Assembly (NCBI RefSeq): GCF_000376945.1
Contig: NZ_AQXU01000024.1
Span: 186,001 to 250,000 of the forward strand
Origin: Leeia oryzae DSM 17879
GTDB taxonomy: Bacteria; Pseudomonadota; Gammaproteobacteria; Burkholderiales; Leeiaceae
DNA: 64,000 nt
Reading direction: 5' to 3'
The notes under the pieces were generated by a model. It was given only the letters and a program-made list of their open reading frames with translations. It was not told the origin of the DNA and searched no databases. A program made the position numbers and the translations under genes. Shown piece after piece: positions 16,223-62,079 of the stretch. Positions within the stretch are counted from its first letter, which is position 1, and each line of letters opens with the position of its first letter.

Positions 16223-17122
16223 TTAGAGAATGAAATTGCCGGCAAACAGGGAAATCGCACCACCAATGGCCAGATAGGGGCCGAATGGTATGGCTTGCTG
16301 TCGGGTCTTGTTGCCCAGCACAATCATCGTAATGCCGATAACGGCACCTGCAGCAGAAGCAATCAGAATGGTCTGTGGCAAGACTTGCCAGCCCAGCCAT
16401 GCGCCAATGGCGGCCAATAACTTGAAGTCACCATAACCCATGCCTTCTTTGCCGGTTACCAGTTTAAATAGCCAGTAAACGCTCCACAGCAACAGATACC
16501 CGCCCGCCGCACCCAGTAGCGCACTGCCAAGGCTGGTAAACCCGCCGTGCCAGCTAAACAGCAGGCCAGCCCACATCAGTGGCAAGGTCAGGCTGTCGGG
16601 CAAGAGCATGGTATCCAGATCGATCCAGGCCAATACCAGCAGAACGGCAAGAAAGGCAAATGCGGCCATGGCGATAGACAGGCCATAAGGGGCGAACAGG
16701 GCTGCGGATAGCGCGGCCAGACTGCCCGTGAACAGTTCTATCAGCGGATAACGCACACTGATGCGGGTTTTGCAGTGCCTGCACTTGCCACCCAGAAACA
16801 GGTAGCTGAACACCGGGATGTTTTCCAGTGCACTGATCTGATGCCCGCACTGCGGGCAAGCCGAGCGCGGATGTGCCAGATTAAAGGCCGGTGCTTTCTC
16901 AAGGTGAGCGGCAATGGCACTTCTGGCATTTGCCAACGCAGGGACAGAACCCTCGCCCTGAATAATCAGGCTTGCCTCATCCAGCCCAGCCTGCATGTCA
17001 GTCAACCAGCCTCGTTCCATCATTTTGGGGAGGCGGTAAATCACCACATTCAGAAAGCTGCCAATCAACAAGCCAAAGACAAAAAATACAACAATCAAAA
17101 ACGACAAGGGAAGATTCGACAT
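16223..17122 (-). CDS. pilD: Type IV prepilin peptidase / N-methyltransferase
   Basis: PilD cuts the leader of prepilins after glycine and methylates the new N-terminus. The 299-residue inner-membrane protein has the two CxxC pairs at 89/92 and 114/117 in its cytoplasmic loop (the methylase-type domain) and the two catalytic aspartates in WIDLD (166-170) and GMGYGDFK (227-234), with about eight membrane spans. The ATG overlaps the pilC stop by one base (TAATG). It should process the pilins of the type IVa system and also the two prepilins encoded at 60433 and 61348, as no second peptidase is seen in this window. Confidence 0.96.
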   Translation of the reverse strand: MSNLPLSFLIVVFFVFGLLIGSFLNVVIYRLPKMMERGWLTDMQAGLDEASLIIQGEGSVPALANARSAIAAHLEKAPAFNLAHPRSACPQCGHQISALENIPVFSYLFLGGKCRHCKTRISVRYPLIELFTGSLAALSAALFAPYGLSIAMAAFAFLAVLLVLAWIDLDTMLLPDSLTLPLMWAGLLFSWHGGFTSLGSALLGAAGGYLLLWSVYWLFKLVTGKEGMGYGDFKLLAAIGAWLGWQVLPQTILIASAAGAVIGITMIVLGNKTRQQAIPFGPYLAIGGAISLFAGNFIL

Positions 17123-51207: not shown

Positions 51208-51450
51208 AAGTTACTCCGGAGCAATATTGAAAGTGGATGACAATTTTACAGACATGGTGCGACCTAGCCAAGTTATTGAATTGTAAATAATAGTTTTTTT
51301 CATGGTTTTGTCATTTAACAACAGTTATTGGCAGATATTGCCATATCAGCAGGGTGTTTTCATGTAGTTTCATGACAAATAAATTTTTGATTGACGGCAT
51401 AATGACATGTGTATATATTGCGCATCTTTTGAAAATACAATGTCATAAAT
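51208..51450. other. Divergent mlaF / secretin regulatory region
   Basis: 243 bases, AT-rich from about 51280 onward compared with flanking genes. It contains a strong plus-strand promoter (51391-51419) and four copies of ATGACA/TGTCAT (51309-51314, 51372-51377, 51402-51407, 51441-51446). The mlaF promoter on the other strand must lie near 51220-51290 but is not clear. Confidence 0.6.
51391..51419 (+). promoter_or_regulatory. Promoter of the MSHA-like operon
   Basis: TTGACG (51391-51396) and TATATT (51414-51419) with exactly 17 bp between them, about 31 bases before the secretin ATG. An ATGACA hexamer (51402-51407) lies inside the spacer and another TGTCAT (51441-51446) in the leader. Confidence 0.7.
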
Positions 51451-53211
51451 ATGAAGTCGTGTGCGGTACGCTTAACATCTGCTGCGGTGCTCATGCTGCT
51501 CCTGAGTGGCTGTGCGTCGCAGTCATTGCCTGTGGTCGATGGGCATCCTGCCCCTGCTACGGATATGCCATTAGCGCCGACATCATCAGCGATGCCTGAC
51601 ATTGTTGGTCCCAAGCCACAACCTGTGATCCAGCAAGAACGCATGAACGTGATTGTCAGCAAGGCCCCGGTTCATGATTTGCTGTTTGCCCTGGCGCGTG
51701 AAGCAAACATGAATGTAGACATCCAGTCAGGCGTTGATGGCCTAGTCACCCTGAATGCTATCGACCAGACCTTCCCGCAAATTCTGGCCAGAATCTCAGA
51801 ACAAGTCGATATCCGCTATGGGTTAAAGCATGGAACCCTGGTGATCGAGCCTGATACCCCTTTCCTGAAAAATTACCCCATCGATTATGTCAATCTGAGC
51901 AGAACGGCAAAGGGAGATGTGTCCATCTCGACGTCGATTGCCAGTCCCGGTAATGCTGGTGCAGCCAGTTTGAACAGTTCATCCACCGTCCTGACCAATA
52001 CAGTCGAGCATAATTTCTGGCGGACGCTGACGGAAAATGTCCAGGCGATATTGCGGGAAGAGGATCGCCTGGTTGTGGTCAGCCGGGCTGTGAATACCAA
52101 CCCGAGTGGTTCCAACAGCACAGCCAGTACACAAGCAGTGCCGGTGGGCAGTTCCGGGGCAATGCAGGTTCAGGCTGCAGCGGCACCGGCCAATCAGGAG
52201 GTATCAGTCAATGAGCGAGTCGTCAATGTGATCGCTAGCCCTGAAGGTGGGGTACTGGCTGTGAGGGCAACGGCCAGACAACACGAAAAGGTAAAGGCTT
52301 TCCTTGACAAGGTCATGCAAAGCGCGGGCAAGCAGGTGCTGATTGAAGCGACAATTGTCGAAGTGCTGCTGTCTAACGACTTCCAGGCCGGGGTGGACTG
52401 GAGCCGTTTGATGCAAGGCGGCAATGGATTCGGCATCTCGCAGCAACTCTCTGCTGGCAGGCTTTCTGCGGCGCCTGCTACTACGCTGACGTATAACAAC
52501 AAGGATAACGCGCTGTTTTCCGGGCAGTTCTCGGCCACTATCCGTTTGCTCGAGTCGTTTGGCAAAACCAAGGTGTTGTCCAGCCCCAAGGTCATGGCCC
52601 TGAATAATCAGACGGCTTTGCTGAAGGTGGTGGATGAGAAGGTGTATTTCACAGTCACGCTGGATGAATCCCATAATGACAAAGGCGATATTACCGACCG
52701 GAAATATACCAGCGCCTTGCATACCATTCCTGTCGGCGTGGTCATGAGTGTAGTGCCGCAAATCGGTGAGGACGACCAGATTACGCTCAATATCCGTCCG
52801 ACCATTTCGAGAATCACCGGTTACAAAGCCGATCCGGTGCCGCAATTGATGAATGCCAGTTTCCAGAATCTGGTACCGGAAATCCAGATGCGGGAAATGG
52901 AGTCCATCCTGAAGGTGCCTAACGGGCAAACCGTTGTACTGGGCGGGCTGATGCAGGACGAACTGATTTCTCAGAAAGATGGTGTGCCGCTATTAAGCCG
53001 TGTGCCCTGGATTGGTGACTTGTTTACCTATCAGAGTCAGACCAACACCAAAAGCGAGCTGGTGATTTTCTTGCGTCCGATGCTGGTCAATGGCGGGTTG
53101 AAACCCTCGACGCAGGCTGGTTATTCATCATTATTGCCTGACGCCAATTCCCTGGCCTCCCCTCAAGAGGTGCGCTCTCCTTCGACTATATTGTTTCCGG
53201 AGGGATCATGA
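51451..53211 (+). CDS. mshL: MshL-type pilus secretin lipoprotein
   Basis: A 586-residue outer-membrane secretin. It has a signal peptide with lipobox LLSG-C21, an N-terminal STN-like domain (about 65-130; NVIVSKAPVHDLLFALAREA), a Ser/Thr/Ala-rich linker (about 200-250), a secretin N1-like domain (ASPEGGVLAVRATARQHEKV) and the C-terminal secretin core (about 290-550) with VLSSPKVMALNNQTALLKV and VPNGQTVVLGGLMQDE. The order matches MshL of the MSHA pilus rather than PilQ or GspD. It opens the operon; its stop overlaps the next ATG (ATGA). Confidence 0.85.
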   Translation: MKSCAVRLTSAAVLMLLLSGCASQSLPVVDGHPAPATDMPLAPTSSAMPDIVGPKPQPVIQQERMNVIVSKAPVHDLLFALAREANMNVDIQSGVDGLVTLNAIDQTFPQILARISEQVDIRYGLKHGTLVIEPDTPFLKNYPIDYVNLSRTAKGDVSISTSIASPGNAGAASLNSSSTVLTNTVEHNFWRTLTENVQAILREEDRLVVVSRAVNTNPSGSNSTASTQAVPVGSSGAMQVQAAAAPANQEVSVNERVVNVIASPEGGVLAVRATARQHEKVKAFLDKVMQSAGKQVLIEATIVEVLLSNDFQAGVDWSRLMQGGNGFGISQQLSAGRLSAAPATTLTYNNKDNALFSGQFSATIRLLESFGKTKVLSSPKVMALNNQTALLKVVDEKVYFTVTLDESHNDKGDITDRKYTSALHTIPVGVVMSVVPQIGEDDQITLNIRPTISRITGYKADPVPQLMNASFQNLVPEIQMREMESILKVPNGQTVVLGGLMQDELISQKDGVPLLSRVPWIGDLFTYQSQTNTKSELVIFLRPMLVNGGLKPSTQAGYSSLLPDANSLASPQEVRSPSTILFPEGS

Positions 53212-53876
53212 GTGCAGTTGGAGACGATCGTCGTCCGGTTGTTAAGACAGAGATGAATCAGGCGTTACCCGCATGGGTACGGCCATCTGCCAGTGGGTGG
53301 CAAATGTCACGGCCGTTTTTGGCCTACGGTATTTTGTTGTTGGGTGCAGGCGTGGGTATTGGGTGGTTCTGGGCCGATTGGACGGAAATGATGGGGCTAT
53401 CCACTCATGATGCGCACCAGACCGTTACTGCAGTTATGTCATCAGTAGTCAATCCTCAGCCTACGGTGGGACTGATGCCTGTTACCAAGGCTACGCAGCC
53501 GGTGAGTGGAGACGCATTTGCAGGCATCTCGCTAACAACCGAAGTGTCCAATACTTCGCAGAGCTTGCCTGCCACAAACGACTGGGTGCATGTTTTATCA
53601 CGGCAAGAGCGTGCACATTACAAACAGCATACGCCACTTTCCACTTTGTTTGCTGCGTTTGCTGAGCGGGCCGATGACATATACAGCATGTCAGCCATCC
53701 CGGAGATGAGTGAAGAAGCGATACCCCGTGAAGTGGTGCAAACGCATTGGTGTGTTCACACCGGTCGGCCGGATGAGGCATGGGTGGTTTTGCCTTCCGC
53801 TATTTCCAGCGTATCTGAGGCGGGGTCTGATAGGGTAAGTCGCAATGACGGGGAGCTTGACCGCCATGGTTGCTAA
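53208..53876 (+). CDS. Bitopic membrane protein of unknown function in the MSHA-like operon
   Basis: I do not recognise this 222-residue protein. A 35-residue polar start is followed by one hydrophobic segment (PFLAYGILLLGAGVGIGWFW, about 36-55) and a periplasmic, Thr/Ser/Val-rich part, then a small region with SRQERAHYKQHTPLSTLF. The layout, with a short cytoplasmic part, one span and a periplasmic tail, recalls MshN or GspC/PilP-type linkers without visible similarity. It overlaps mshL by 4 bases and the ATPase gene by up to 32. Confidence 0.75.
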   Translation: MSAVGDDRRPVVKTEMNQALPAWVRPSASGWQMSRPFLAYGILLLGAGVGIGWFWADWTEMMGLSTHDAHQTVTAVMSSVVNPQPTVGLMPVTKATQPVSGDAFAGISLTTEVSNTSQSLPATNDWVHVLSRQERAHYKQHTPLSTLFAAFAERADDIYSMSAIPEMSEEAIPREVVQTHWCVHTGRPDEAWVVLPSAISSVSEAGSDRVSRNDGELDRHGC

Positions 53877-55560
53877 TGATGATCAGCGACTGGGCGGGAA
53901 ATTATTGCAGCAAGGTGTGCTGACAGCCGATCAGCTGGGTATTGCCTTGAAGGAGCAGCAGCATTCCGGCTTGTTGCTGGGACAACAACTGGTGCATCTG
54001 GGGTTCGTGACTGACACGGCCATTCAGCAGGCACTGGAAGCGCATTTGGGTCATAAAGTGATTTTGATGCTGGACCGGGTCGTTGCGGATAATGACGCGC
54101 TGGCCCTGGTCCCGGAAGAGCTGGCCAGACGTTTAAAGGTATTCCCATTAAGTTGGGACGTGGCCAGCCAGGTACTGGTGCTGGCCATGCAGACCCCCTC
54201 AGACGTCATGGCCCAAGACCTGATTCAATCTCGGCTAGCACGGCCTGTCATTCTGGATGTCTATCAAGCAGCTGCATCAGATATTTTGGCCGCTATCGAC
54301 ATGCATTACGGTAACCAGAATTCTGTAGATGACATTGCTGATGAATTGGAACACAACGTATCGCATGATGTCTCTGGCCCCCTTTCCGAACAGCCCGTTG
54401 TAAGGTTGATTGATGCATTCCTGATGGATGCCGTGCGGTCACGGGCATCGGATCTGCATTTTTCGCCAGAGCAGGGCTTTATCCGGGTGCGCTACCGGAT
54501 TGACGGTGTGCTACAGCAAGTCAGGTGTTTGCACAAGCGTCATTGGCCGGCCATGCTGGTACGGCTAAAAGTCATGACTGACATGAATATTGCGGAAACC
54601 CGGGCCCCTCAGGATGGCCGGATGTCCATGCTATTGCTGGGGAGAATGGTGGACTTCCGGGCATCCGTTTTCCCGACCCGACATGGCGAAAATGTCGTGT
54701 TAAGGGTACTGGATCGCTACAAAAAGCAATTGTCCCTATCCATGCTGGATGTGCCGGACTATCCCGAGTCGCAGCTAAAGGCGTTATTGCGACAGGTGAA
54801 TGGGCTGATTCTCGTTTGTGGCCCCACGGGCAGCGGAAAAACCACCACCTTGTATGCCATGCTGGGCGAGCTTAGCCATATGGGGGTGCATATCATGACC
54901 CTCGAAGATCCTGTGGAATATCCGGTGCCCTTGATTCGGCAAACGTCGATCAGCGATGCCGTCAAACTGGATTTTGTTTCGGGGATCCGTGCCATGATGA
55001 GACAAGACCCGGACGTGATGCTGATTGGTGAGGTGAGGGATGATGAAACTGCCGCCATGTCTTTTCGGGCAGCGATGACAGGGCATCTGGTGCTGAGTTC
55101 TTTGCATGCGCATTCGGTTGTGGGCGTGATTGCCCGCCTCAAAGAGCTGGGTATCAGCCATGCCGCCATGGCAGGGCAAATCAAAGGCATTATTGCTCAG
55201 CGTTTGTTACGCAAACTCTGCCCTGTCTGCAAAACCGGTTATACCGCAAATGAAGATGAAATAGCCGCATTGGGTGTGTCGGGCGAGGGCGCTAGTCCAG
55301 TTTTGTTCCGTGCTGTTGGTTGCAGGCAATGCCACGGTACCGGCTATCAGGGGCGGTTTCCCTTGATGGAAGTCTTGATCATGGATGACGAGCTGGCTGA
55401 ATGCCTGGAGCAGCAGGTCAGCCAGCTTCATCTGCATCGGATTGCTGTCAAGAAGGGCATGCAGACCTTGGCACGGCAGGCACAGTCCGCTGTGCTGCAC
55501 GGGCTGACCTCGCTGGAAGAGGCATCCCGTGTGGTGGTGATATACCAAGGGATGGTGTAG
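53845..55560 (+). CDS. mshE: MshE/GspE-type assembly ATPase with MshEN domain
   Basis: A 571-residue secretion/pilus ATPase. Residues 15-38 read RLGGKLLQQGVLTADQ then LGIALKEQ, followed by LGQQLVHLGFVTDTAIQQAL at 45-64, the two 24-residue motifs of the MshEN cyclic-di-GMP-binding domain. The ATPase core has the Arg-rich VRYRIDGVL, Walker A GPTGSGKT (326-333), MTLEDPVEY, Walker B DPDVMLIGEVRDDETA and the His box SSLHAHS; a zinc knuckle CPVC ... CRQCHGTGYQGR follows. It is a paralogue of PilB at 18376. ATG 53845 (AGGG 9 bases upstream) and ATG 53866 (GGGGAG 10 bases upstream) are both possible starts. Confidence 0.88.
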   Translation: MTGSLTAMVANDDQRLGGKLLQQGVLTADQLGIALKEQQHSGLLLGQQLVHLGFVTDTAIQQALEAHLGHKVILMLDRVVADNDALALVPEELARRLKVFPLSWDVASQVLVLAMQTPSDVMAQDLIQSRLARPVILDVYQAAASDILAAIDMHYGNQNSVDDIADELEHNVSHDVSGPLSEQPVVRLIDAFLMDAVRSRASDLHFSPEQGFIRVRYRIDGVLQQVRCLHKRHWPAMLVRLKVMTDMNIAETRAPQDGRMSMLLLGRMVDFRASVFPTRHGENVVLRVLDRYKKQLSLSMLDVPDYPESQLKALLRQVNGLILVCGPTGSGKTTTLYAMLGELSHMGVHIMTLEDPVEYPVPLIRQTSISDAVKLDFVSGIRAMMRQDPDVMLIGEVRDDETAAMSFRAAMTGHLVLSSLHAHSVVGVIARLKELGISHAAMAGQIKGIIAQRLLRKLCPVCKTGYTANEDEIAALGVSGEGASPVLFRAVGCRQCHGTGYQGRFPLMEVLIMDDELAECLEQQVSQLHLHRIAVKKGMQTLARQAQSAVLHGLTSLEEASRVVVIYQGMV

Positions 55561-55562
55561 CC

Positions 55563-56765
55563 ATGCCTGTTTATCATTATCGTGCACTCAATGCGGGGGG
55601 GATGGTTGTGCGCGGGCAGTTGCATGCCGACACGCGACACGCACTTGAAGCCTATCTGCAAGCTGCCGGACTGGATGTGCTATCGGCCCGCAGAGCCTGG
55701 GTCAGCAAGTACAGTTTCAGGGGGTATCAGACCCTGAAGGTGGATGTATGTACTTTCCTGTTTCATCTGCAACGCATGCTGGATGCCGGCATACCCTTGC
55801 TAGCGTCGCTGGCATTATTACAGTCTCAAGCGTCTCCTGTGTTAAGTAGCAAGATTCTTTGTGTCCGGCAACGGGTAGAAAGTGGCGATCAGCTATCGAC
55901 TGCGCTACACAAGTCTATTGCGCATATGGATGCTGTCACGATTGCGTTGATCCATGCTGGCGAGCAGGGAGGCCTGCTAACGAGCCTGCTGCTTCTGGCC
56001 GCCCGCCGTTTGCAAGCGCAGGAGAACCGCAGGCGCCAGTTGCTGACCCTGCTCTTGTACCCTCTGCTGACACTGGTGTTGACAGGAATGGCTCTTCTCG
56101 TGCTGTTGATAAAGGTGGTACCCGAATTAGCCCTCTTTTTAAGAAATCTGCAGATACCAGCCCCCTGGTACACACAGGGATTGCTCGGATTGTCGGGCAT
56201 GATTGTGACCCATGGTGTCACGATCATGATCGTTTCAAGTGTATTACTACTGGTGCTGGGGGCTGCGTATCTGATGTTCCCCGTGTGCCGTCTATGGGTG
56301 GCTCATGGTGCTTTGAAGGTCTGGATACTGGGAAAGCTTAATCAAAAGGTCCAATTATCAAGATTCATTCATGCGCTGGGTGCTTTGTATGAGGCAGGTG
56401 TGCCCTTGCTGGATGCATTGGGCACCTCGCTGGCGGTTGTGACGAATCCGGTATTGAAGACCGGGTTGGCAACAGCCAGACATTCCATTGTGCAGGGCAT
56501 GGGGTTGGCACAAGCCTTTGCTGGTGCAGGTTGTTTCCCTCCCTTGATGCGAGAGATGCTGCATGTTGGCGAGCAGACGGGCACATTAGCCAGCGCACTT
56601 CAGCATCTGCAGGCACTCTATGAGCAAGATATTCAGGCCACCGAGGCCAGACTGTTGGCCTTGATACAGCCCACTATCATGGTTCTGCTGGGTGCCATGC
56701 TCGGCTGGATGTTGATGGCAGTGTTTGGCGTGATTTATGACAACCTTGACCGCATGGTGCTGTAG
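55563..56765 (+). CDS. mshG: MshG/GspF-type inner-membrane platform protein
   Basis: A 400-residue platform protein with the family N-terminus YHYRALNAGGMVVRGQL and two GspF domains (about 60-185 and 260-390; CTFLFHLQRMLDAGIPLLASL and FIHALGALYEAGVPLLDAL), with three membrane segments. ATG 55563 lies 2 bases after the ATPase stop and gives the normal N-terminus; the frame is open upstream but only as a shadow of the ATPase gene. It partners the ATPase at 53845 and is a paralogue of PilC. Confidence 0.88.
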   Translation: MPVYHYRALNAGGMVVRGQLHADTRHALEAYLQAAGLDVLSARRAWVSKYSFRGYQTLKVDVCTFLFHLQRMLDAGIPLLASLALLQSQASPVLSSKILCVRQRVESGDQLSTALHKSIAHMDAVTIALIHAGEQGGLLTSLLLLAARRLQAQENRRRQLLTLLLYPLLTLVLTGMALLVLLIKVVPELALFLRNLQIPAPWYTQGLLGLSGMIVTHGVTIMIVSSVLLLVLGAAYLMFPVCRLWVAHGALKVWILGKLNQKVQLSRFIHALGALYEAGVPLLDALGTSLAVVTNPVLKTGLATARHSIVQGMGLAQAFAGAGCFPPLMREMLHVGEQTGTLASALQHLQALYEQDIQATEARLLALIQPTIMVLLGAMLGWMLMAVFGVIYDNLDRMVL

Positions 56766-56767
56766 CA

Positions 56768-58219
56768 ATGGCACACTGGTATTTGCTGAGCGATGAAGCA
56801 GGGATGCAGGTATGGCGAAAACAGCATGCCAACATGCAGCAACACGCTTTTTACCCGGCGGATGATGCAGGCATCACCTCGTTCCGCTTTTTCCTGAACA
56901 CACATGCACGTGACCGGTTTAGCTGGTTATTCGAGACAGCACAAGAGACCGTGCATCATGAACGCCTGCCGGCAATTGCCAGAAAACTGGCCACCCGGGT
57001 GTTAAACAGGCGGTTGCTACAGCGTTTTGCCACTGCAACCTATCGGATGAGCATTCTGCAGCAACCGTTCCTCACTGCAGATCACCAATGGTTGGGGCAA
57101 TTATTGGTACTGGAAGAGGAGGGGGGCTTAGCACCCTGGGCAGCGTTGATTCAGGCATCCGCCATTCAAGTGGATACCATGCAGTCCGTATTTGGTGTGA
57201 TGGCAAGGCCAAAGCTGCCTGTGCCGGTACCGTCGCATAGGCATGCGGTCTGGGTCGTGATGGAGAACCGCTATCTTCGCGTGCTTGTATATAGCGATGC
57301 CGGGTTGTTGTTGATCCGTAAATTACCAGCCAGTCTCGTGCAGGAACATACCAAGCTGGGTAAAGAAATTCAGAAAACCTGTGATTTTGCCTTTCAACAG
57401 GCAGGCATTGCCACCATAGCGGATGACGTGCCGGTATTGGTCTCTCTGGAAAGTGTGCGCGCCGCAGAAAGCCGGTTTGTGTTTGAGCAGTTAGGGTGGC
57501 AGATTGATGATCGACCGACGACCGGCCTGACGCCGCTTATGCTGCATGCGTTGGCTGACCTGCAAAACGAGCCGGGTTTTTTACCGGATGTTGCCAAGCA
57601 GATGCGCAAGCACAAGCAAGTGAAGCAACAACTATGGTGTGCTGCTGCTGCGCTCTTGCTCGTCCTGCTATTGGTCTCTGGGTTTGTCTATCAGCGTAGT
57701 CATGTCAAGCGCTACGAGCAAACGCGGCTTGAGCACGATTATGCAAGGCTGCTGACTCAGCCTGAGAGCAAGATCGCCTTGTTGGCCCCTGATAATGTTG
57801 ATGTTGCCCAAGCCCAAGCGGTTGTTCAGACCGCGCGATTGTTAGCGCAATGGCCTGAACCTGCTGACATATTAACCAGGCTGAGTCAGGGAATTGCTGC
57901 TTTTCCCTCTATCCGGCTTGACGAAATCAACTGGCAGCTTGGGGTGGCAGACAAATTGCATACGTGGCCGCCACAGCAGATGAGTCTGGTGTTGCAGGGG
58001 CATTTTGTCGATGTTGCTTCAGATCTGACTGCGCATAATGCGCAGGTGGTCGGGTTGCAGTCGGCATTGTCTCGTCTCTTTCCCCAGACCAGCATCCTGA
58101 TACTGAAATGGCCAGTGGATACCGGGTCCACGGTTGAAATTTCTAATGAAGCACTGCATGGAGACACAGCAAACCGCTTTTCCATGCAGCTAAACCATCC
58201 ATTGATCAGCCGCAAATGA
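56768..58219 (+). CDS. PilM/PilN- or GspL-like assembly protein of the MSHA-like operon
   Basis: A 483-residue protein with one membrane span at about residues 290-309 (WCAAAALLLVLLLVSGFVY). The first 280 residues are cytoplasmic and contain beta-alpha patterns with VWVVMENRYLRVLVYSDAGLL (in parts: HAVWVVMENRYLRVLV, YSDAGLLLIRKLP) that could be an actin-like fold; the last 170 residues are periplasmic, starting with a helical linker. This is the layout of GspL, or of PilM joined to PilN. I see no decisive motif, so the role is inferred from architecture and from its place between the platform gene and the PilO-like gene. Confidence 0.7.
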   Translation: MAHWYLLSDEAGMQVWRKQHANMQQHAFYPADDAGITSFRFFLNTHARDRFSWLFETAQETVHHERLPAIARKLATRVLNRRLLQRFATATYRMSILQQPFLTADHQWLGQLLVLEEEGGLAPWAALIQASAIQVDTMQSVFGVMARPKLPVPVPSHRHAVWVVMENRYLRVLVYSDAGLLLIRKLPASLVQEHTKLGKEIQKTCDFAFQQAGIATIADDVPVLVSLESVRAAESRFVFEQLGWQIDDRPTTGLTPLMLHALADLQNEPGFLPDVAKQMRKHKQVKQQLWCAAAALLLVLLLVSGFVYQRSHVKRYEQTRLEHDYARLLTQPESKIALLAPDNVDVAQAQAVVQTARLLAQWPEPADILTRLSQGIAAFPSIRLDEINWQLGVADKLHTWPPQQMSLVLQGHFVDVASDLTAHNAQVVGLQSALSRLFPQTSILILKWPVDTGSTVEISNEALHGDTANRFSMQLNHPLISRK

Positions 58220-58839
58220 AACGACAGGCCACAGTCATCTCATGTTTGCCCGTGATTGCGAGTCTGGTTGTGCTTGCGATTTGCTTGTGCGCAGTCATCG
58301 GTTATGGGGCCTGGTATCAGACCCGTATTGATGAGCGAATGTCTGGCCTCAGAGTGCGCATAAAGGCGATTCAGTCTGCCCGGCTGGAGGCGAAGGCTCG
58401 CCAGCAATGGCTGCTGGCGCATCAGGGGGAGCTGAGCCGCTTAAGCAGTTATGGCTGGATGAGGCCTGAGTCACGCACCCTGTGGCTGCAACGGCTGGAT
58501 CACTGGCAGGTACAGCACCCGTATGCACAGCTTGAGTACCATCTTTCTCCCAGACAGCCCGTGTCAGAAGGAGGGCTGGGAGGTTGGCAACCCGTCTTTA
58601 CCCGCATGTCGGTATCCCTGCAGATTGTGCAGGAAGGGGAATGGTTTGACTTTCTGGATGCTATCCGCGGGACGGAAGGTACTGCAAAGGTGCATCAATG
58701 CCAGTTGCAGCGGCATGCGGCAGAAGAGAGGACGGCCTCCGAGATGGATGCACCTACCCTCTCTTTACATTGTGAAATTGACTGGTTTGGCGTTGAACGG
58801 TTACCCGCCAAGACCGGCACGCAGGAAGTCCTTCCTTGA
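58216..58839 (+). CDS. PilO/GspM-like protein
   Basis: A 207-residue bitopic protein: short basic start, one membrane span (about 11-32, PVIASLVVLAICLCAVIGYG), a periplasmic coiled coil (about 36-75; RIDERMSGLRVRIKAIQSARLEAK in parts) and a small alpha-beta domain with FTRMSVSLQIVQEGEWFDFLDAI, the pattern of the PilO/GspM ferredoxin-like fold. The symbol is left open because the similarity is structural. Its ATG overlaps the stop of the upstream gene (ATGA). Confidence 0.72.
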   Translation: MKRQATVISCLPVIASLVVLAICLCAVIGYGAWYQTRIDERMSGLRVRIKAIQSARLEAKARQQWLLAHQGELSRLSSYGWMRPESRTLWLQRLDHWQVQHPYAQLEYHLSPRQPVSEGGLGGWQPVFTRMSVSLQIVQEGEWFDFLDAIRGTEGTAKVHQCQLQRHAAEERTASEMDAPTLSLHCEIDWFGVERLPAKTGTQEVLP

Positions 58840-59264
58840 GGCAGAAACATCATTCCGTTAAAAGCCTAATGGTTATTGTTTGGGCAAGCATGCTGGCGGG
58901 ACAACTGTTTGCCAGTCCGTTGGGAACATTGGTCTTTTCTGCCGAAGAGCGGCATGCCGTGCTTGCGGGGCGTAGTCATGAGACGGCATCAGGGCAGATT
59001 GTCCATGTTGCAGGCATGATCCAGATACGGCATCGCCCAAAAAAATTATTGTTGAACGGGCAATGGATATCTGCTGGTGAACAAGCGACAGAGGATGTGG
59101 TGATCGAGCCAACAGGAGGTCGTCTGGTGCGGGTGATACACAAGCGTGCAGAAAAAAAGCAGGGGATCTATACGCTAAAAGTCGGCCAGCACCTGGATAT
59201 GGCCAATGGCCGTGTTCAGGAAGGCCCGCCGCCTGAGGATAAAGCTCGGCAGGCTATGCCATGA
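58836..59264 (+). CDS. PilP/MshK-like periplasmic protein
   Basis: A 142-residue protein with an N-terminal signal or anchor (LMVIVWASMLAGQLFASP) and a small beta domain: LGTLVFSAEERHAVLAGR followed by VHVAGMIQIRHRPKKLLLNGQW, typical in order (ER-x-x-L-x-x-R, then G-x-I-x-R ... W/L-x-N-G) for MshK/GspC-HR-like proteins. They bind the secretin and link it to the inner-membrane parts. The start is TTG 58836, with AGGAAG 7 bases upstream and overlapping the previous stop (TTGA); ATG 58869 is the alternative. Confidence 0.65.
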   Translation: MRQKHHSVKSLMVIVWASMLAGQLFASPLGTLVFSAEERHAVLAGRSHETASGQIVHVAGMIQIRHRPKKLLLNGQWISAGEQATEDVVIEPTGGRLVRVIHKRAEKKQGIYTLKVGQHLDMANGRVQEGPPPEDKARQAMP

Positions 59265-60439
59265 GTATACGTTGCAAACACCTGCGGGGGGCCGTATTGC
59301 TGCTGATGTGCATGGTGTGGCTGGTTTTGCTGGCCGGCTGGTGGCTCATGCACTGGCAGCAAAGTGCAACCGTGATGCATGGTATCCGTCAACAGCAATC
59401 GCATTTGCAACACATCAAGCAGAGTTTGCTCGATGCCATGGCATCCGATGATGCTGGGTCAGTGCTGGGCAGCGCATTTGCCCCGGACATTTTGCTGAAT
59501 GGGTCATCACATGGCATCGGTGATTATGGTGTCTGCCTGGATGCCCTGGCTGCGGATGGTTTGCCTTATGCAAAGTATGGTATCAATGCCACGGCTTATG
59601 CGGGCTTGCGCTGTATCGGCCGATTACCAGTCCGGGATGTCAGGATACCGACGACGTCAGGCATGTGGCAAGGCGACCCGACCGGGGAGTCGATCTGGTA
59701 TGCCGTATCCCCTAATTTGCTGGATGTGGCGAGTGACCCGGCCTCACCAGGCGGGGCTTGTCTTGATTTCCTGAATGCAGACATCTTGAGTCAACCTGCA
59801 GGGACTGCCATATGCCAGCATGGCGCGTTGCCTTATCCTTGGTTAGTCATTCGTGATACGAATGGCAAGGTGATTAGCGATCAGGTCGCCATGATTCTGA
59901 TCGCGCCTGGTCGTGCTGATGCACCAAGGACATCTCAATGGACCCAGCTTAGCCGCTCCATACTGTCGCAGTATCTGGATAACATCACCATTGGGGCTGG
60001 GCATGCATTCATGGTATCGGGGCACTATGACAATGCGGCACTCACTTTGAGCCTGATTCAGGCGCCCATCAGCCGGGATGATGCTTCATCCGCATTGTAT
60101 GAGTCACCCTATCGGTTCAATGATCAACTGGTCTGGATTACCCGTCAGGAGCTGGTGGATCGATTGGTGTGGCATGTGGTGCAGGTACTGGCACATGACC
60201 TGAACTATCCATATCCGCCTTTTCGCCCGCCGCTGGATACGCTGCACCCGTCCGCACCAGGAAAAATCAACCGCTGGACTCGCCTGGAAAGGCATTGGGG
60301 CTATACCTTCCGCTATCAAAAACTTACAGATGATCACGTTCAGGTGCAGTTATCCGGATGCCAAAGCGAGTTTGATCTTGTGTACGTTGCGGCCGGCAGT
60401 CAGCCATATACCCAGATAAGGAGAACGGGGCCATGTTGA
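59261..60439 (+). CDS. GspK/PilX-like large minor-pilin candidate
   Basis: A 392-residue protein starting IRCKHLRG-AVLLLMCMVWLVLLAGWW. The R-G followed by a hydrophobic helix resembles a prepilin leader, but position +5 after the glycine is Leu, not Glu. GspK, the large tip pseudopilin of type II secretion, also lacks Glu5 and is unusually big, so a GspK-like role is plausible. The large C-terminal part has at least six cysteines that may form disulfides. It overlaps the previous stop (ATGA) and the next gene by 7 bases. Confidence 0.6.
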   Translation: MSIRCKHLRGAVLLLMCMVWLVLLAGWWLMHWQQSATVMHGIRQQQSHLQHIKQSLLDAMASDDAGSVLGSAFAPDILLNGSSHGIGDYGVCLDALAADGLPYAKYGINATAYAGLRCIGRLPVRDVRIPTTSGMWQGDPTGESIWYAVSPNLLDVASDPASPGGACLDFLNADILSQPAGTAICQHGALPYPWLVIRDTNGKVISDQVAMILIAPGRADAPRTSQWTQLSRSILSQYLDNITIGAGHAFMVSGHYDNAALTLSLIQAPISRDDASSALYESPYRFNDQLVWITRQELVDRLVWHVVQVLAHDLNYPYPPFRPPLDTLHPSAPGKINRWTRLERHWGYTFRYQKLTDDHVQVQLSGCQSEFDLVYVAAGSQPYTQIRRTGPC

Positions 60440-61260
60440 GATATGCACAGGTGTCCGGTAGGTGTCGTTTGGGACGCTGCCGCTCAGCGGGCTTTTCTTT
60501 GCTGGAACTCGCGATTGTTCTGCTGGTAATCAGTATCCTGACAGCGGGAGCCTTGCGGCTATTGGGCACCATGAATCAAAACCGTCAACAGGATGAAACC
60601 CGTCAGCGATTAGACATTGCACGCATTGCTGTACTGGATTATGTGGCGTTATATGGTCAATTGCCTTGTCCTGCCTCTGCCGCTAGTGCGGGTCAGCCAG
60701 ATGTGGATGCCCAAGGACATTGTACGCATCCTTACGATGGTTTTTTACCCGCAGCGGCCTTGGGAATTAGTGGTGTTGATGGTCAGGGCTTTATAGCGGA
60801 TGCCTGGGGGCAGACAGCCAATCGTGTCCGGTATGCCGTGGCGGTCAATGCTTTTTCCGGCGCAGTTTCTTGTCTGTCTGCACCCGGCAGCAATTATGCC
60901 GGACTATGGACGGCGAACCGACAAGCCTCGCCAAATCTGGCGTCCAATTTTTATCAGGCCACACCACTTTTACCCGAGTTATGCGTATGTAGTACCGCGA
61001 GTTGTTCACCATCCGCTACCTGGCTGGCACCAGGCGTAGCGGTGGTTCTGTATTCGACGGGTGGTAATGCGCTTGCAGGGGGTAAAAGCAAGGATGAAGC
61101 TCAGAATCCGAATCAGAATGGAGGAAGCGCAGACCGTATCTTTGTGTACCACGCACCGACAATGGCAGGGACGATTGGTGGCGAATTTGACGATCAAATG
61201 ACCTGGATTTCATCGGCGGAAATTTATGGCCGCATGTTAATGGCAGGGCGTTTGCCCTGA
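60433..61260 (+). CDS. Prepilin-type protein, cysteine-rich
   Basis: A 275-residue type IV prepilin. The leader ends SAG20 and the mature protein begins FSLLELAIVLLVI with the conserved Glu5, so PilD should cut after Gly20. An N-terminal helix continues to about residue 80 (RQRLDIARIAVLDYVALYG), then a globular part with six cysteines (LPCPAS, GHCTHP, VSCLSA, ELCVCSTASC). It is longer than a standard major pilin (about 150), so a minor or adhesive pilin is likely. It is the ninth and last gene of the tightly overlapping series. Confidence 0.85.
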   Translation: MLRYAQVSGRCRLGRCRSAGFSLLELAIVLLVISILTAGALRLLGTMNQNRQQDETRQRLDIARIAVLDYVALYGQLPCPASAASAGQPDVDAQGHCTHPYDGFLPAAALGISGVDGQGFIADAWGQTANRVRYAVAVNAFSGAVSCLSAPGSNYAGLWTANRQASPNLASNFYQATPLLPELCVCSTASCSPSATWLAPGVAVVLYSTGGNALAGGKSKDEAQNPNQNGGSADRIFVYHAPTMAGTIGGEFDDQMTWISSAEIYGRMLMAGRLP

Positions 61261-61285
61261 CAGGATAGCTTGCCCTTCTTCTAAT

Positions 61286-61330
61286 TTGACGCATGATTTG
61301 TTTCTTTATAAAATGACATTGTCATTTTAT
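61286..61330 (+). promoter_or_regulatory. Promoter with overlapping 23-bp palindromic operator before the last prepilin gene
   Basis: TTGACG (61286-61291) and TAAAAT (61309-61314) with 17 bp spacing form a near-consensus promoter. A perfect inverted repeat covers 61308-61330: arm ATAAAATGACA, one central T, arm TGTCATTTTAT. It overlaps the -10 and the expected start point, the classical place for a repressor. The half-site TGTCAT recurs in front of the operon at 51309-51446. Confidence 0.75.
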
Positions 61331-61347
61331 GGTTGGGTGAAAAATCA

Positions 61348-62079
61348 ATGCGGTACAAATGTTTAGAGCGACTGAAACCATATGCCTCATATACCGGTTT
61401 TACCATGGTCGAGATGGCCATCGTACTGGTGATCATGGGGCTGCTGCTGGGTGGTATTCTCAAGGGGCAAGCAATGATCAATAATGCCAAGGTCAATAGC
61501 CTGATCGCTGATGTTAAAGGCATCCAGACAGCTTTCCTTGCATTTCAGGACCGCTACCATCATGTACCGGGGGACTGGGATCAGGCCAGTACGGCAATAC
61601 CCGGGGCCGTTAATTGCAGCAGTAACTGCAATACCGGCGCGATTGATACGGCACAAAAATCCGTGCTGGCATTTAATCACCTCAGTGCCGCAGGGTTTCT
61701 GGCGGGAGATTATAGCGGGGCAGGGGCGATCAATACGGCGGCAAATTCACCCGTAAACCGCTGGGGTGGCGTCATGCAAATTGCGTTTGACGGAAACTAT
61801 GCGACAGCCACTGCGACCAGTGGAAATACGCCAAGGCACAACATCAAAACCGGCAACATGATGCCGGTGAGCGTGCTACGGGAGCTGGATACCAAACTGG
61901 ATAATGAAAGTCCGGTGTCGGGTGGCTTTCGCTTCAGTGCTTGGTCCTCTGGTTCTACTGCGCCGGCTGTGGCTGGGGCGGGTGGCTGCACGACGAATGG
62001 GGCAGCGGCAGATTCTCTCTGGGATGCAGGTAATACCTCTGCGGCCAGTAATTGCGGTGGTGCCCTGCTATTGGACTGA
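61348..62079 (+). CDS. Prepilin-type protein with its own promoter
   Basis: A 243-residue type IV prepilin. The leader of 17 residues ends SYTG17; the mature chain starts FTMVEMAIVLVIMGLLLGG with Glu5. The segment FQDRYHHVPGDWDQA follows the N-terminal helix and recalls pilins of large size; four cysteines (NCSSNC, GGC, SNCGG) are near the ends of the globular part, which is rich in Ala, Gly, Ser and Asn. A GGGTGA sequence precedes ATG 61348. Its separate promoter suggests that this is the major or the most strongly regulated subunit of the cluster. Confidence 0.87.
   Translation: MRYKCLERLKPYASYTGFTMVEMAIVLVIMGLLLGGILKGQAMINNAKVNSLIADVKGIQTAFLAFQDRYHHVPGDWDQASTAIPGAVNCSSNCNTGAIDTAQKSVLAFNHLSAAGFLAGDYSGAGAINTAANSPVNRWGGVMQIAFDGNYATATATSGNTPRHNIKTGNMMPVSVLRELDTKLDNESPVSGGFRFSAWSSGSTAPAVAGAGGCTTNGAAADSLWDAGNTSAASNCGGALLLD

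Follow-up and report, generated by a model that had tools for sequence, protein, structure and literature searches.

An MSH-type filament operon of Leeia oryzae with signs of reduction and fast evolution

This work identified a ten-gene operon (51451-62079, + strand) in a window of 64,000 nucleotides from Leeia oryzae DSM 17879, the window being the whole stretch of DNA that was analyzed. The operon is assigned to the MSH (MSHA-type) filament loci, since it has their gene order and its MshL secretin exceeds the cut-off of an NCBIfam equivalog model. The reading that we favor, with good though not full confidence, is that of a reduced and fast-evolving MSH-type machine deprived of mshM and mshN, and hence of a derived version rather than a new machine. 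MSH pili are known mainly from work on Vibrio. The locus described here is an ordinary-type MSH locus with a derived, lineage-specific reduction, and it leaves the wider picture of type IV filaments unchanged. Three points are worth keeping: MshM and MshN have been lost, the operon diverges fast, and betaproteobacterial MSH loci repeatedly contain a prepilin pair that has no name. The locus with this pair is widespread in betaproteobacteria, several protein families of the operon are not covered by Pfam and are ready to be defined, and a genus devoid of MshM and MshN provides a natural test of the purpose of both proteins. A literature search, limited and therefore proving little, did not turn up any account of such loci in betaproteobacteria.

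All ten reading frames are intact and none contains an internal stop. Genes 1 to 9 overlap by 4-11 bases or are separated by 2-base spacers, and gene 10, encoding a prepilin, comes after a gap, which confirms the compact nine-gene block followed by a second prepilin that the first-pass annotation had described. The frame of a 222-aa protein (53208-53876) overlaps the end of mshL (51451-53211) by 4 bases and is followed by mshE (53866-55560). The genes of the platform protein MshG (55563-56765) and of a 483-aa protein (56768-58219) each begin 2 bases past the preceding gene, and the frames of 207 (58216-58839), 142 (58836-59264), 392 (59261-60439) and 275 aa (60433-61260) each overlap the preceding gene by 4-7 bases. 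The gap before the last prepilin gene, which ends at 62079, is 72 bases when measured from a TTG at 61333; the ATG at 61348 is the likelier start and gives a protein of 243 aa. For mshE, 53866 is a better start than 53845, because GGGGAG lies upstream of it and the resulting N-terminus resembles those of relatives. The 142-aa gene starts with a TTG within the TTGA overlap, and we consider it real because its family alignment shows LGxLxFxxxER after the signal peptide.

The secretin (586 aa, lipobox LLSGC) matches PF00263 and reaches 271.2 bits against TIGR02519, the MshL equivalog model, whose cut-off is 250.2. Genome contigs were scanned with MshL. The operon was compared with 80 named loci, chiefly beta- and gammaproteobacterial, and with 11 loci from the same order (L018-L027 and L029). 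Apart from cuts at edges and small exceptions, complete loci show the order mshM-mshL-mshN-mshE-mshG-mshI-mshJ-mshK, usually with the 392/275-aa prepilin pair downstream of mshK. Both sets of loci share the order L-E-G-I-J-K. Among the loci with room downstream of K, the genes I, J, K and that of the 275-aa prepilin are present in 26/26 and that of the 392-aa protein in 25/26; in Massilia and Duganella, the 392-aa protein was not seen and the loci hold other prepilins. Dozens of other genomes show the same order, which is therefore not a product of chance. The description of the operon as MSHA-like in the first-pass annotation is thus borne out. The families and order of MshI, MshJ and MshK match those of MSH loci, MshK by its position and motif only. 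In the published MSH model, mshM and mshA, which may lie elsewhere, are mandatory, although three mandatory genes suffice (PMC6668835); the absence of mshM here, and the fact that no mshA orthologue was recognized, speak against our reading. It should also be mentioned that, of 100 genomes of the order, 42 contain a secretin that exceeds the TIGR02519 cut-off. Several of them (G049, G062, G067, G092 and others) have two such secretins and may therefore carry two MSH-type machines side by side. Furthermore, the MSH locus L136, filed under a Janthinobacterium MAG, is near-identical to the Iodobacter loci L129 and L131 in the MshE and MshL trees, and its contig is probably misbinned.

The genes adjoining mshL encode a T2SSE-family ATPase with an N-terminal MshEN domain (gene 3, MshE, 564 aa) and a T2SSF protein (gene 4, MshG, 400 aa). 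MshE passes the cut-offs of PF00437, PF05157 and NF053729, and MshG matches PF00482 in two stretches. MshE is 45-51% identical to its counterparts in MSH loci of other families, and its Walker A and four-Cys motifs are present both in the window genome and in G002, a second species of the genus. The MshEN domain scores 45.6 bits against NF053729 (cut-off 38), and its motif I exactly matches the published 24-residue c-di-GMP pattern (PMC5013675); the Arg and Gln of motif II are missing. In G002, the Arg and second Gly of motif I are gone and the domain model reaches 36.9 bits for the same cut-off of 38. Near-invariant positions were taken as the 150 at which 68 other MshE proteins show at least 98% identity: the window genome is non-consensus at 17 of them and G002 at 52, compared to nine or fewer for any other MshE. 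Judging from these substitutions, the function of MshE could be impaired in the window genome. Because of their long branches, the window genome and G002 could not be placed in the MshE tree.

The predicted structure of the 483-aa protein (pLDDT 84) contains an actin-like domain that matches PilM, the cytoplasmic domain of EpsL/GspL, and FtsA. The modeled protein consists of this actin-like cytoplasmic domain, a long membrane-crossing helix and a PilN-like periplasmic part with a weak profile link to PilN. Such a predicted layout is that of GspL and plausibly that of MshI too. Comparison of its family with PilM by hhalign gave no sequence match (0.2-0.4%), so that its link to PilM is one of predicted fold and not of sequence. 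The family of the 207-aa MshJ/PilO-like protein matches the PilO family of the same genome with 81% probability (61% after column trimming), and two of its members show a weak T2SSM match; searches of the MshJ sequence against the PDB yielded chance matches only. The 142-aa protein, which has a signal peptide, occupies the position of MshK and has no database match; since hhalign found no match between MshK and PilP, its initial designation as PilP-like is positional. Pfam scans of the MshI, MshJ and 392-aa families and NCBIfam scans of the 392-aa and MshI families gave nothing useful. Four proteins had initially been left unnamed; the lack of database matches holds for these and extends to a fifth, the 142-aa protein. 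Most of them can nevertheless be assigned to MSH or GspL/PilO roles or recognized as a prepilin paralogue, and the 222-aa protein is the sole true orphan.

The 392-aa protein carries a class III signal with Gly-1, which its family retains, and a hydrophobic helix, lacks Glu5 as do the listed relatives, and is larger than the other prepilins of the operon. These features agree with the GspK-like character initially proposed, but no sequence or fold homology to GspK was found (the fold model being of low confidence) and the protein is a paralogue of the 275-aa prepilin: the two family profiles align over 205 columns with 99.9% probability (E = 8.7e-31). It has no sequence match in Pfam, NCBIfam or the PDB, and we claim no fold for it because its model (pLDDT 69) gave no match in the fold search. 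Given that Glu5 is needed for homopolymers and dispensable for processing, and that the T2SS tip complex is capped by GspK (PMC4471445), a role in the tip or in initiation is reasonable and, by analogy, the 392-aa protein is probably a tip/initiation subunit. The 275-aa prepilin has Glu5 (GFSLLE) and passes the PF07963 cut-off with 25.7 bits. The 243-aa prepilin (61348-62079) also has Glu5 (GFTMVE), passes TIGR02532 and, with 20.3 bits for N_methyl, falls just below the Pfam cut-off; it is retained in G002 and is probably the main subunit. Two promoter-like sites agree with the consensus at 10 of 12 positions, one upstream of mshL (TTGACG, 17 bases, TATATT; 51391-51419, + strand) and one before the last prepilin gene (TTGACG, 17 bases, TAAAAT; 61286-61314, + strand). 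As such sites show no excess over shuffles in the region as a whole, these putative promoters are suggestive only. The second one is overlapped by a near-perfect 23-base palindrome with 11-base arms, ATAAAATGACATTGTCATTTTAT (61308-61330). This operator-like sequence has no other perfect copy in the genome, and G002 lacks it at the corresponding position.

The first-pass annotation had noted that the operon lacks its own prepilin peptidase, which PilD encoded at 16-20 kb should supply, and lacks a retraction ATPase. Both observations hold: the genome encodes a single prepilin peptidase, at 16331-16657 of the window, and its PilT/PilU-type ATPases are on other contigs. A prepilin peptidase is not part of the published MSH model, none being identifiable in the locus (PMC6668835), and as MSH loci are generally devoid of one, its absence here is normal. 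With a single peptidase and PilT/PilU homologues elsewhere, processing by PilD and retraction by PilT are probably shared. The genome encodes two secretins, PilQ and the MshL of the operon. A 594-aa GspE/PilB-type ATPase is also encoded in this genome (C15, L180:7408-9192), with no filament genes beside it, and ATPases of similar size were matched in G001, a third species of the genus, and G002.

The main peculiarity of the operon is the absence of mshM and mshN. MshN is located between L and E in 70/70 spanned loci (script count) and in the 11/11 others, i.e., 81/81, and MshM is upstream in 54/62 loci (script count). Searches with MshM found no match in the window genome or in G002; those with MshN found TPR-like stretches in unrelated proteins of the window genome only and nothing in G002. 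The initial view of a self-contained minimal filament machine therefore gives way to that of an MSH locus that lost mshM and mshN. This loss need not disable the machine, since V. cholerae mutants deleted for mshM or mshN have pilus amounts similar to those of the wild type (PMC4624765). Elsewhere, eight loci (L078, L079, L091, L095, L137, L139, L143 and L145) have MshN and no MshM in the upstream sequence fetched, and MshM may be lost on its own more often than MshN is lost.

The slot of MshN is occupied in the window genome by the orphan 222-aa protein, which has one predicted membrane helix, and is closed in G002, where mshL and mshE are 9 bases apart. The 222-aa protein has no family match in Pfam or NCBIfam and a single weak partial match across 399 genomes of the order. 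Its frame has a good ribosome site, every other frame contains 7-12 stops, and codon bias is positive in its own frame only. It represents either the remains of MshN or a new protein; a relationship to MshN was considered and found unconvincing (about 5 bits to the MshN profile). It is possible, if doubtful, that this protein functionally replaces MshN, or both MshM and MshN, within a rewired secretin-assembly module: it lies in the MshN slot with the same likely topology (short N-terminus, membrane helix, periplasmic tail) and is coupled to mshL by an ATGA overlap, but it has no TPR, its codon bias is below that of its neighbors, and G002 has neither this gene nor mshN. We view with similar reserve the proposal of an MSH pilus working without MshM and MshN in which the 222-aa protein would handle the secretin and the 392/275-aa pair would form an undescribed tip-initiation module conserved among the MSH pili of betaproteobacteria.

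The operon lies between mlaF and an antiporter gene in both the window genome and G002. In G001, an empty stretch of about 105 bases separates the two, and the operon was thus lost there or gained later elsewhere. Breakage of the operon in close relatives, which the first-pass annotation had named as refuting its view, is half true, as one of two congeners lacks it. Another, distinct operon of type IV filament-like character is found in G001 (L179:6703-15648); it encodes a pilin, a platform, an ATPase, a 754-aa secretin-like protein and further pilins, which may indicate that filament systems turn over within the genus. Between the window genome and G002, proteins of the operon are 20-54% identical, compared to 72-84% for PilM, PilN, PilO and PilP and 75-86% for the adjoining mla and antiporter genes. 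This divergence, the number of near-invariant MshE positions changed in both species and the empty site of G001 would fit a decaying operon whose frames are still open, with constraint relaxed after the loss of mshM and mshN and no useful pilus. Such a decay is nevertheless unlikely, for the genes have no internal stop in either species, MshE keeps its Walker A and four-Cys motifs, and gene overlaps, start signals and signal peptides are all intact.

In the reduced MSH-type machine that we favor, MshE would hydrolyze ATP and, with the MshG platform, polymerize prepilins cleaved by the single PilD of the genome, while MshL would serve as the pore of the outer membrane, with MshI, MshJ and MshK as the alignment complex of the inner membrane. 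Filaments would probably be initiated at a tip made of the 392-aa prepilin, which lacks Glu5, and the paralogous 275-aa prepilin; the last prepilin, separately promoted, would probably be the main subunit. As motif I of MshEN is intact, assembly may be stimulated by c-di-GMP; retraction could rely on the shared PilT. The genus has lost mshM, encoding an ExeA-like ATPase, and mshN, encoding a TPR protein. On this sequence-based view, the machine is probably an accessory attachment pilus, possibly dispensable, given its fast evolution and the fact that it was lost or never gained in one congener.

The MSHA locus of V. cholerae (mshI-F and mshB-Q; PMC4624765, PMC6668835) shares with the operon a cluster encoding an MshL-type secretin, MshE with MshEN, MshG and I/J/K-type proteins, and neither has its own peptidase or retraction ATPase. 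The operon differs from it by the lack, as far as compared, of mshM, mshN and the mshA-D/O-Q prepilins, by the addition of the 222-aa orphan and of the 392/275-aa pair, and by the location of I-J-K, which follow G here and in other betaproteobacterial loci whereas they precede L in V. cholerae. The MSH loci of Chitinibacteraceae, Gallionellaceae, Rhodocyclaceae and Methylotenera (L020, L022, L129, L132 and others) share the order from MshL to the 392/275-aa pair, but MshN is present in all spanned cases and MshM in most, whereas the operon has neither. Its GspL-, GspE- and GspF-like parts and a Glu5-less prepilin, as in GspK, recall type II secretion systems. However, the possibility, initially left open, of a secretion system or pseudopilus exporting proteins is highly improbable: GspE and GspF are the top-scoring ATPase and platform models and there are only two or three prepilins, but both scores are far below the cut-offs (447 vs 630 and 210 vs 424 bits), the secretin passes the MshL equivalog and not GspD (172 vs 351 bits), no GspC- or GspG-type gene was found in the operon, and the genes are ordered as in MSH loci. 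Finally, the type IVa pilus of the same genome (PilMNOPQ, PilBCD) belongs to the same superfamily and probably shares PilD and PilT with the operon; it has its own secretin, ATPase and platform, encodes PilM and PilN by separate genes, and its PilMNOP proteins are highly conserved in the genus, at the 72-84% identity given above.
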